Below are positions 6,676 to 9,414 of a stretch of DNA of 64,000 bases, one piece after another. The stretch is from Candidatus Nitrosotalea sinensis (GTDB lineage: Archaea > Thermoproteota > Nitrososphaeria > Nitrososphaerales > Nitrosopumilaceae), in assembly GCF_900143675.1 (NCBI RefSeq), contig NZ_FRFC01000003.1, positions 374,095-438,094 on the forward strand, in the 5' to 3' direction. How positions within the stretch are numbered: the first letter of the stretch is position 1; each line of letters starts with the position of its first letter. Under the pieces are notes generated by a model that saw nothing but the letters and a program-made list of their open reading frames with translations, was not told the DNA's origin and did not search any database. Both the position numbers and the translations under genes were made by a program.

Positions 6676-7566
6676 TCACTGAAGGTTTAACTTCAGTGGT
6701 ATTGAGGTACTGCCAAATGGTTCTCCTATTTTTAGATAGTATTGCTTTGATGGATCAAAGTCAAATCCTCCCACATGTTCTTTGCTGTAAAAGTTCCAAT
6801 CTATTGCAACAGGTTTGTGGTATACTAATTCTAGATGGCCAGATGTAAGAGAAAATATCGATGGTGGATAATCTCCTTGCCCGTCTGACAAATGATAGTT
6901 GCATGCAAAAGGTCCTGTGCAAAACAAATCTGGATTGTTTGATGAACTCTGGGTATTCTCTATTATTGTATGAACTATCACCATTTCACCATCACCTGTA
7001 TTGATCGCATCTGCACCTGTTAGATAATAGGTCACAGGACCTACTGTATATGGTGTAGAGTTTTGCATTTTTGTTTTGAGTTCTTGTTCATTTTCTATAT
7101 TTGCTAGGCATGTCTCTTTATCTGCAGGAGTACTCTCATTGTCACAACTTGTTGTATCAGAACTTACGGATGTAGTATTTGACAACTGGGTTTGATTTGA
7201 ATTCTGAGATTCATTTCCTCCTTGTGATATTTGGATTATTCCTACATCTATCATGTACTGAAGGCTTGATACAAATTCCAAAGTGCTAATGGAATCATTG
7301 GCCCATCCACCCGCATTGGTTTTTACCCATTTTGGTATGTGATCAGATTTTGTAGCATTTGTATTCTGCGATGATGTTGGAATTTTGATTATGTTGCTTT
7401 GTATTAGGTATTGTATGGAACTGACAAATTCCTTGTCATTTATCTGATCTTCAGACCACCATTTGGCATTATTTTTGACCCAAGCTGGAATAGAATCTGC
7501 ATATGCGTGATTTAATGCAAATCCGATGACAACTAGTGCCAAAATCATGCCAATTTCTTTCTTCAT
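6676..7566 (-). CDS. Secreted protein with two PxWVKxNAxWW repeats
   Basis: A 296-residue exported protein. Residues 1-23 form a signal peptide ending at AYA. Two related units follow (about 26-62 and 75-112), each starting IPxWVKxNAxxW and continuing into a helix with FVSSxQYLI or FVSSLQYMI and an xIIxI end, a repeat widespread in surface proteins of Nitrososphaerota. A Ser/Asn/Gln-rich linker leads to a C-terminal domain of about 130 residues without a known match, containing a Cys pair (FCTGPFACNYH). It probably acts outside the membrane; function unknown. The same repeat is found in the interrupted gene at 56210. Confidence 0.75.
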   Translation of the reverse strand: MKKEIGMILALVVIGFALNHAYADSIPAWVKNNAKWWSEDQINDKEFVSSIQYLIQSNIIKIPTSSQNTNATKSDHIPKWVKTNAGGWANDSISTLEFVSSLQYMIDVGIIQISQGGNESQNSNQTQLSNTTSVSSDTTSCDNESTPADKETCLANIENEQELKTKMQNSTPYTVGPVTYYLTGADAINTGDGEMVIVHTIIENTQSSSNNPDLFCTGPFACNYHLSDGQGDYPPSIFSLTSGHLELVYHKPVAIDWNFYSKEHVGGFDFDPSKQYYLKIGEPFGSTSIPLKLNLQ

Positions 7567-7712
7567 TGATTTGTTTTTGTTATTTTAGAATATAAACTAG
7601 TGACAACTAATAATTCTAGTGCCTAATATTTTTTATAAATTGTATAGATTAGTTGGCACCATGTAGAATTCTTAGCACTATTTTAAATAATGATGATATA
7701 CTATCAAATTCA

Positions 7713-8594
7713 TTGGTCTATATTCGAAGTAAAAAAATAAAAGGTATCGAATATGCGTATCTAGTTCATAGTGTCTGGGATGAAAAATTAAACACATCAA
7801 GACAAAAGACGATAAAATATCTTGGTAAAGTTTCTCATATCTCCATTGACAGCATCCCAAAAGAGTTTCAAGACATTCCTAATGTCAGGACTTTTCTTGT
7901 GAATCATAATATAGAGAATAAAATTAATGTACAAAAAGAACATACAAAGATACGAAAAATATTTTTCAATCTTCTAATTGATGGAAACCTTGAAGGAGCG
8001 ATTGATGTCTATGATACATATTCAAAGTCTTTACACTTATCAAACTTCTATGACTATATTTTAAAAATTGTAATGTATGAGATTGGTGATCTCTGGAAAA
8101 ACAAAAAGCTTGAGATTGCTCAAGAACATGTAGCAAGCAATACAGCGAATTCATTTGTAAAAACATTAACAGAAAGAACGTCTGCCTCACAACAGGGATG
8201 CAAGATAGTAATATGTACTCCTGAAGGAGAATGGCACAATCTTGGATGCAATGTACTGCAATCCGTATTGCAGAATAAAGGTTTCAAAGTCTTTAATATT
8301 TCTCCTTCTTTACCTCATGATTCTGTTGTAAATTATATTCTAGATGTTAAACCTGATGCTGTCTTTATTTCTGTGACTCTTGCTGAAAACCTGTCTTCCT
8401 GTAAACGCCTCATACATAAGATCGAATCAAAATCTTCTGTACCTATAGCTGTGGGTGGACTGGCTGTGAAAGAAATGAAGGACCAGAAACTTGATGCCAT
8501 TGTATCTACTGATGATCTTGATAGTGTTTCTTCATTGGTGAAAACCATGATGAAAAATCAGAAAAAACCTAAACCCTATAATAAAAAAAGTTGA
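7713..8594 (+). CDS. Cobalamin-binding sensor protein, CarH/LitR-like core
   Basis: About 293 residues. The N-terminal ~55 residues (YIRSKKIKGIEYAYLVHS, IKYLGKV) resemble the N-terminal segment of IS1634-type transposases and lack a MerR helix-turn-helix. A helical B12-cap domain follows with W128-x9-E138-H139, the Wx9EH motif of CarH/LitR photoreceptors, then a Rossmann-type B12-binding domain with TPEGEWHNLG, giving the E-x-H-x2-G motif whose His175 should be the lower cobalt ligand. CarH-type proteins sense light through adenosylcobalamin; light sensing here is inference. A TTG at 7653 would add 20 residues, but the TTTTAAATAA box at about 7680-7690 fits the TTG at 7713. Eight bases later comes a pyrimidine-dimer glycosylase. 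Confidence 0.75.
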   Translation: MVYIRSKKIKGIEYAYLVHSVWDEKLNTSRQKTIKYLGKVSHISIDSIPKEFQDIPNVRTFLVNHNIENKINVQKEHTKIRKIFFNLLIDGNLEGAIDVYDTYSKSLHLSNFYDYILKIVMYEIGDLWKNKKLEIAQEHVASNTANSFVKTLTERTSASQQGCKIVICTPEGEWHNLGCNVLQSVLQNKGFKVFNISPSLPHDSVVNYILDVKPDAVFISVTLAENLSSCKRLIHKIESKSSVPIAVGGLAVKEMKDQKLDAIVSTDDLDSVSSLVKTMMKNQKKPKPYNKKS

Positions 8595-8602
8595 TACTCT
8601 AA

Positions 8603-8932
8603 TTGAGAATCTGGGATATTCCGCCAAAAAACTTGTGTCAATTACATCTTTTGGGAGAACATAGGGAATTACATGCAATTTGGACTATATTGACACAAAA
8701 TAAGATGGGCTATACTCATCATCCAGAAACATTGCGCTGGAAAAACAAGTTACACGCACTGTATAATAGACATAGTTTACTAGTATCTGAAATGAAACGT
8801 CGCGGATATCACCACAAAAGTGATTTGGATAAAAGACTGGCCATAGGTTCTACAAAACAAACCAAATTTATCAATTCTCTCGAAGAACAGGTAGAAATCT
8901 TAAAAAATAAAAAATGTAAATGTAATGTCTAA
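8603..8932 (+). CDS. Pyrimidine dimer DNA glycosylase (T4 endonuclease V family)
   Basis: A 109-residue protein beginning at TTG: MRIWDIPPKNLCQLHLLGEH and REL, then GYTHHPETLRW, LYNRHSLLVSEMKRRGY and HHKSDLD, all hallmarks of the Pyr_excise family. Phage T4 endonuclease V uses its N-terminal amine and Glu23 to cleave at UV-induced cyclobutane dimers; Glu22 here matches that residue in the HxxxEHREL-like helix. The TTG start is supported because the family starts exactly at MRIW. Residue 2 is Arg, so the initiator Met may not be removed, unlike T4. It lies 8 bases after the B12-sensor gene and is probably co-transcribed. Confidence 0.87.
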   Translation: MRIWDIPPKNLCQLHLLGEHRELHAIWTILTQNKMGYTHHPETLRWKNKLHALYNRHSLLVSEMKRRGYHHKSDLDKRLAIGSTKQTKFINSLEEQVEILKNKKCKCNV

Positions 8933-8946
8933 GTTCATGAATTATT

Positions 8947-9414
8947 ATGATGACACCTGATTTACTCTCTTTTGCTGTGGCATTTCTTGGTGGTCTATTT
9001 GCTACTCTTTTGATGACTGCAACAGAAATTCCATCGTGGAAGAAATGGGGATTGCAGGGTGTATTAGAATGGCATGAAAATCAAGTACTATGTGTTAAAT
9101 TTTTCAAATTATCAAAATCAAATCTTCATTTCAAAGGAATTTTTTTGTTACATTTTGTAAATGGTGGTTTGGGAAGTATGGGATTTTTGTTAGCATTGTG
9201 GATATTCCCAATTGCTCTTGGAAGTTTGTTTTTCTCAGGAATACTATATGGATTATTTCTATGGGTTGTCACATTACTTCCTATCCACAAACCTATAACA
9301 GGAATATCACTACGAACTCATCCTGATGGAATACTGCCATCTGTTTCAAGTTTTATTGGTCATGTTGTATATGGGATTGCTATTGGGTATTTTTTCTTGA
9401 ATCTACCTGTATAG
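8947..9414 (+). CDS. Four-helix membrane protein, unknown
   Basis: A 155-residue integral membrane protein with about four hydrophobic helices: AVAFLGGLFATLLMTA, GGLGSMGFLLALWIFPIAL, ILYGLFLWVVTLLPI and FIGHVVYGIAIGYFFL. Between the first two is a soluble loop with EWHENQV and FLLHFVNGG. No family was recognised. It starts 14 bases after the dimer glycosylase and may be the third gene of the B12-sensor operon, which raises the possibility that it takes part in the same light or UV response, but nothing in its sequence shows this. Confidence 0.65.
   Translation: MMTPDLLSFAVAFLGGLFATLLMTATEIPSWKKWGLQGVLEWHENQVLCVKFFKLSKSNLHFKGIFLLHFVNGGLGSMGFLLALWIFPIALGSLFFSGILYGLFLWVVTLLPIHKPITGISLRTHPDGILPSVSSFIGHVVYGIAIGYFFLNLPV

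Follow-up and report, generated by a model that had tools for sequence, protein, structure and literature searches.

The closest described systems are photoreceptors of the B12 type, among them the MerR-type adenosylcobalamin (AdoCbl) regulators CarH/LitR (class I) and the photocobilins. The published light signature of this group consists of the elements GxxW, EH, GxxH and GxxxP (PMC11796333), and in light sensors it is the W and EH residues to which the adenosyl group is bound (PMC11796333, PMC10979010). Both CarH and photocobilins form head-to-tail assemblies (PMC10979010). In Pseudomonas, the light-inducible region of PmlR1 contains a photolyase, a short-chain dehydrogenase (SDR) and an FAD oxidoreductase (PMC9758184), and genes for RudS (TudS-DUF1722) are often found in LitR/photolyase light operons (PMC11417400).

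Archaea are not mentioned in the main text of two papers on the mining of B12 photoreceptors (PMC11796333, PMC10979010), and photolyases of ammonia-oxidising archaea (AOA) have been described in sunlit lineages (PMC6593220, PMC10232715, PMC9239080). Our search of the main texts of open-licence papers turned up neither a B12 photoreceptor reported from archaea nor a light sensor described in AOA. Cells of these organisms rank with the most abundant in the ocean, and inhibition by light is believed to influence where they live. Here, we analysed a window of 64,000 nucleotides from Candidatus Nitrosotalea sinensis, which has a genome of 1.6 Mb and belongs to the family of Nitrosopumilus and its kin (f1), together with a sample of 300 genomes of the order (AOA).

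The putative cobalamin-binding protein X

The window encodes a CarH-like cobalamin-binding putative photoregulator, termed X, at 7713-8594 on the plus strand (293 aa, TTG start). A longer, mechanically called reading frame starts at 7653; this start was rejected because it lies within the operator described below and is not conserved, the 7713 start being the only one kept across relatives. X consists of a beta-type head (residues 1-70), a four-helix cap (about 85-160) and a Rossmann B12 domain (about 163-283). Cap and Rossmann domain are both above the Pfam cut-off (PF02607, B12-binding_2, E 5.8e-9; PF02310, B12-binding, E 5.7e-16). Pfam detected B12 domains only and no bilin-binding globin-like domain, and the structure model stops at the Rossmann domain. 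A cobalamin adenosyltransferase (PF01923) is also encoded in the genome.

The signature residues of X are G125DLW128-x9-E138H139 and G172EWH175. An earlier note on this DNA had pointed out W128-x9-E138-H139 and E173-W-H175, and we found these residues exactly there. The pattern G..W-x9-EH...G[ED].H is kept in 112 of 116 distinct X copies, the four exceptions forming one paralogue group, and G125, W128, E138, H139, G172, E173 and H175 are invariant across 36 diverse relatives, so that chance does not account for them. The fourth signature element, GxxxP, is replaced in the window copy by S197PSLP201 (SxxxP), compared with GASVP in photocobilin 8j2w; its G is found in some relatives.

A sequence search of the PDB returned the photocobilins 8j2w, 8j2x and 8j2y as best matches, above methionine synthases, and TtCarH and AerR were also matched. 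Using a profile-based AlphaFold2 model of X (mean pLDDT 89), the top hits of the fold search were photocobilins, the CtMerR B12 domain and TtCarH, the latter with a TM-score of about 0.8 by target. Judged by sequence and model, the B12 domain of X is of the photoreceptor type. X also has sub-threshold matches to corrinoid-protein families, which would suit a methyl-transferring corrinoid carrier of the MtaC/MtbC type that lies near repair genes by coincidence. We regard such a role as very improbable: the best NCBIfam match is the CarH model (residues 98-290 only, 61 bits against a cut-off of 400), photoreceptor structures head both the sequence and the fold ranking, none of the loci inspected had a recognisable methyltransferase gene next to X, and both the linkage to repair genes and the operator data shown below speak against it.

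In agreement with the earlier note, X has no MerR domain: neither Pfam nor NCBIfam returned a MerR match for residues 1-80, and in the model this part is built of three strands and one helix. The head, a putative DNA-binding domain encoded at 7713-7922 (plus strand), is predicted to form a three-stranded sheet plus helix that is not represented in Pfam, and it contains invariant basic and aromatic residues. Searching with the head alone for similar folds gave nothing significant, and neither fold nor Pfam searches revealed a recognised relative with DNA-binding or other known function. We conclude that the MerR head is replaced in X by an uncharacterised beta domain.

The proposed resemblance of the N-terminus to a transposase received no support, as no transposase was found in Pfam, PHROGs, plasmid or viral searches, and a transposase origin of the head was discarded. 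A viral origin of X was likewise rejected, since none was found on viral contigs and phages gave weak B12-domain matches only. The sole outside protein found to share the head is a Fic-like protein in two genomes, both from congeners, whose N-terminal segment is related to it (L260:434-1321 and L261:453-1364, both minus strand).

The operon and its operator-like repeats

X is followed after 8 bp by P (8603-8932, plus strand; 109 aa, TTG start) and, 14 bp after P, by M (8947-9414, plus strand; 155 aa), confirming the spacing and coordinates reported earlier. The assignment of P to the pyrimidine-dimer DNA glycosylase family was also correct (PF03013, Pyr_excise; E 3.7e-28, 98 bits against a cut-off of 23, residues 1-75), and P shares 36% identity with phage enzymes annotated as endonuclease V. 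The catalytic residues of T4 endonuclease V are the N-terminal Thr2 and Glu23. Compared by eye with the T4 sequence, P keeps the Glu (in HREL) together with the adjacent H and R, and it starts with M-R-I-W and has no Thr. M, to which no family could be assigned, shows about four hydrophobic segments, as expected for the four-helix membrane protein that had been proposed; in several further families, too, its relatives are neighbours of X or P. The divergent gene (cluster 0; 6676-7566, minus strand) encodes a probably secreted protein with VPxWVKxNAxWW repeats.

In the relative G523, X is 88% identical, and both the X-P-M operon and the divergent neighbour are preserved (dN/dS about 0.08-0.17 for the four genes, window vs G523). 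Family f2 contains the alternative arrangement M-P-X (L053). In a further genome, the P beside X looks degraded, with an internal stop (G206:C151:10643-10813, L051).

Missed by the earlier note were two operator-like repeats, 7653-7688 on the plus strand and 7590-7625 on the minus strand. The first, the operator-promoter of X, is composed of TTGGCACCA (7653-7661), 10 bp, TTAGCACTA (7672-7680) and the TATA-like TTTTAAAT; the second, belonging to the divergent gene, reads TAGGCACTA-N10-TTGTCACTA-GTTTATAT. Both are conserved in G523. Across families, the consensus at X promoters is the direct repeat TTRGCACTA-K-N9-TTRGCAYTA with a TATA element directly after it, and 60 distinct X promoters share a repeat spacing of 19 bp. 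New here is this TTRGCACTA direct repeat, which borders on the TATA box at promoters of X. The first half-site is located about 57 nt ahead of the X start codon, a distance that suits leaderless transcripts. Separate promoters had been named as evidence that would count against a common unit; in the window, one operator-bearing promoter stands before X, and P and M follow at 8 and 14 bp, as in G523.

To what extent the repeat accompanies X was seen in a pattern search of the 300 genomes, which found it in 82 of the 107 genomes with X and in 11 of the 193 others, compared with 7 of 107 and 4 of 193 for the reversed-pattern control. Among the sites listed, repeats more than 400 bp away from X starts were present in at least 46 X genomes vs at least 6 others. 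Two nearly complete genomes, G252 and G223, have good operator sites together with P or photolyase and no X was found in them, which may reflect an assembly gap or recent loss.

The TATA box comes immediately after the second half-site in the promoters of the X, SDR, amine oxidase and cluster 0 genes; binding in the dark would therefore be expected to block TFB, and light to relieve the block. The promoters of TFB, P and cl6 often carry the upstream half-site only, so that activation is possible there, and the single half-sites at P and TFB promoters fit activation as well as repression.

A different factor whose gene lies close by, e.g. TFB, could also read the repeat, in which case X would be a B12 light sensor acting as a co-regulator like AerR/PpaA. 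TFB genes adjoin X and carry a half-site themselves, the head of X is without a known DNA-binding relative, and AerR is among the PDB matches of X. Nevertheless, the repeat tracks X across genomes and, in the genus of the window, follows X and the operon instead of phylogeny. Moreover, the first half-site is not a BRE, as the BRE/TATA position is only reached about 20 bp downstream of it, and nucleic-acid binding would fit the basic and aromatic residues that are invariant in the head. Taken together, a pure co-regulator is unlikely, and we favour an X that would bind the repeat with its own head.

Distribution, repair genes and predicted regulon

X-like proteins are encoded in 107 of the 300 genomes, with the same head domain in most. 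A scan of named genomes located them in Nitrosopumilus, Nitrosarchaeum, Nitrosotenuis, Nitrosopelagicus, Nitrosocosmicus, Nitrosopolaris and relatives. The occurrence is patchy in the genus of the window (4 of 37 genomes), and the window copy forms a long branch in the X tree. Some Nitrosopumilus possess a second X paralogue near a photolyase (L077, L229, L231, L235), which has kept the head and the lower-ligand His and has lost W and EH.

Photolyase (PF03441) was found in 37 genomes, of which 35 also encode X, and P in 39, of which 28 do. Homologues scattered without repair genes, the outcome that the earlier note had set against its own reading, are not what we observed: X lies within 15 kb of P in 15 of the 28 genomes with both, and within 15 kb of a photolyase in 21 of the 35. 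Only one X genome contains P and photolyase together (28 with P, 35 with photolyase; Fisher p 5e-5, with p-values for both linkage and exclusion inflated by the relatedness of the genomes). Hence the two almost exclude each other among X genomes, most of which have a photolyase or neither, rather than P. Photolyase and the light-independent glycosylase seem to replace each other under one regulator. The idea of a B12 core wired to dimer repair is supported by the linkage to P and photolyase, but it was too narrow, as P is one of several predicted outputs.

Half-site rates were determined upstream of operon starts in neighbourhoods chosen around X or P, not genome-wide, where the background is 8% of unrelated genes. 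Within these neighbourhoods, the half-site precedes 76% of cluster 0, 85% of cl10, 73% of FAD amine oxidase, 65% of cl22 and 63% of cl6 genes, followed by SRPBCC-like genes (49%), photolyase operons (43%), SDR (41%), TFB (37%) and P (26%). For DUF1722, BtuF-like, cl16 and GTPase genes, the count in the same neighbourhoods was 0 of 122, which indicates that the enrichment is gene-specific. Membership of these four in the regulon by position alone was rejected, since they have no upstream half-site; as part of a longer operon, DUF1722 could nevertheless be transcribed. When P is farther than an operon away, 23 of 31 genes are without a clear half-site.

The repeat is also present at an unlinked locus of the window genome (C3:650-652 kb), between an SDR and a cl6 gene. 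In the congener G513, X is found next to SDR at the locus matching this site, and within the genus a full-length SDR is encoded in G000 and G513 only. Between the unlinked operator and cl6 lies a small Cys-rich, zinc-ribbon-like ORF (L219:5900-6069, plus strand), and L055 has a similar peptide ahead of X. The clusters cl6, cl10, cl22 and cl7 (L041-L238) comprise short conserved proteins without a Pfam family that have the operator in common; cl22 shows a weak DICT match. They may be unknown light-stress proteins.

These data also bear on the question of what X senses. AOA make cobalamin (PMC7554672), a BtuF-like gene is near X in several genomes, and oxidoreductases are among the putatively regulated genes, all of which would be in line with a sensor of cobalamin supply, redox state or oxidative stress that controls a general stress set independently of light. 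In contrast, X keeps the W/EH residues, which in light sensors are the ones that contact the adenosyl group (PMC11796333, PMC10979010), its strongest linked gene is photolyase, which needs light, the BtuF-like gene has no half-site (0 of 20), and in bacteria, the counterparts of these genes are induced by light (PMC9758184). We consider a signal other than light distinctly unlikely.

Proposed mechanism and comparison with known systems

Our preferred reading, which we hold to be probable, is that X is an archaeal CarH-like AdoCbl photoregulator that binds its operator in the dark and whose operon is induced by light. In the dark, the C-terminal domain would hold AdoCbl and oligomerise head to tail, placing the beta-rich N-terminal domains on the 19-bp-spaced TTRGCACTA direct repeat; a direct-repeat operator suits head-to-tail assemblies like those of CarH and photocobilins. 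At X-type promoters, the occupied second half-site, directly upstream of TATA where TFB binds (BRE), would block initiation. On illumination, the Co-C bond would be cleaved, the oligomer would loosen and the operon would be induced; in the window, this would raise the amounts of X, of the dimer glycosylase P and of the membrane protein M. A response would also come from the divergent gene and from the distant locus (SDR oxidoreductase and small protein). In most relatives, X would serve a wider light-stress set, namely photolyase or P, SDR, FAD amine oxidase, an SRPBCC protein and TFB. B12 binding, the light response, binding of the repeat by X itself and the sign of regulation are all parts of this scheme that we infer.

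With somewhat more reserve, we lean towards the view that this is a new kind of archaeal regulator, in which an AdoCbl photoreceptor with a beta-type DNA-binding head not described before would act on the TTRGCACTA repeat and govern an AOA light-stress regulon with photolyase and glycosylase as alternative outputs. For AOA, this provides a concrete sensor, operator and target list and could show how these microbes sense sunlight; if true, the new DNA-binding head would also make this B12 photoreceptor of interest for optogenetics.

Among the known systems, T4 endonuclease V/Pyr_excise matches P by family; in contrast to the T4 enzyme, P lacks the N-terminal Thr and is encoded together with a B12 regulator. 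The region of the Pseudomonas LitR PmlR1 (PhrB, SDR, FAD oxidoreductase, RudS) resembles the X loci in having photolyase, SDR, FAD oxidoreductase and DUF1722, whereas the class II LitR itself has a MerR head and no Rossmann B12 domain, makes use of a LOV protein and recognises a different operator. AerR/PpaA is, like X, a B12-binding photoregulator without a MerR head, but AerR acts through CrtJ, while X has its own 70-aa head and a co-occurring operator-like repeat. The photocobilins (SasPcob, AbPcob) provide the solved structures nearest to the B12 domain of X in both sequence and fold; they carry a bilin-binding globin-like domain, which X lacks, and X has an N-terminal head. In contrast to CarH/LitR, no carotenoid genes were recognised in X loci. 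X shares with CarH/LitR the cap and Rossmann B12 domain, W-x9-EH and ExH, a similar predicted fold, a direct-repeat operator at the promoter and the linkage to photolyase and similar oxidoreductases, and it differs from them by an archaeal head in place of MerR, the operator TTRGCACTA and archaeal TATA/BRE promoters. We infer from this comparison that X works like CarH without being a member of the MerR-type CarH/LitR family.
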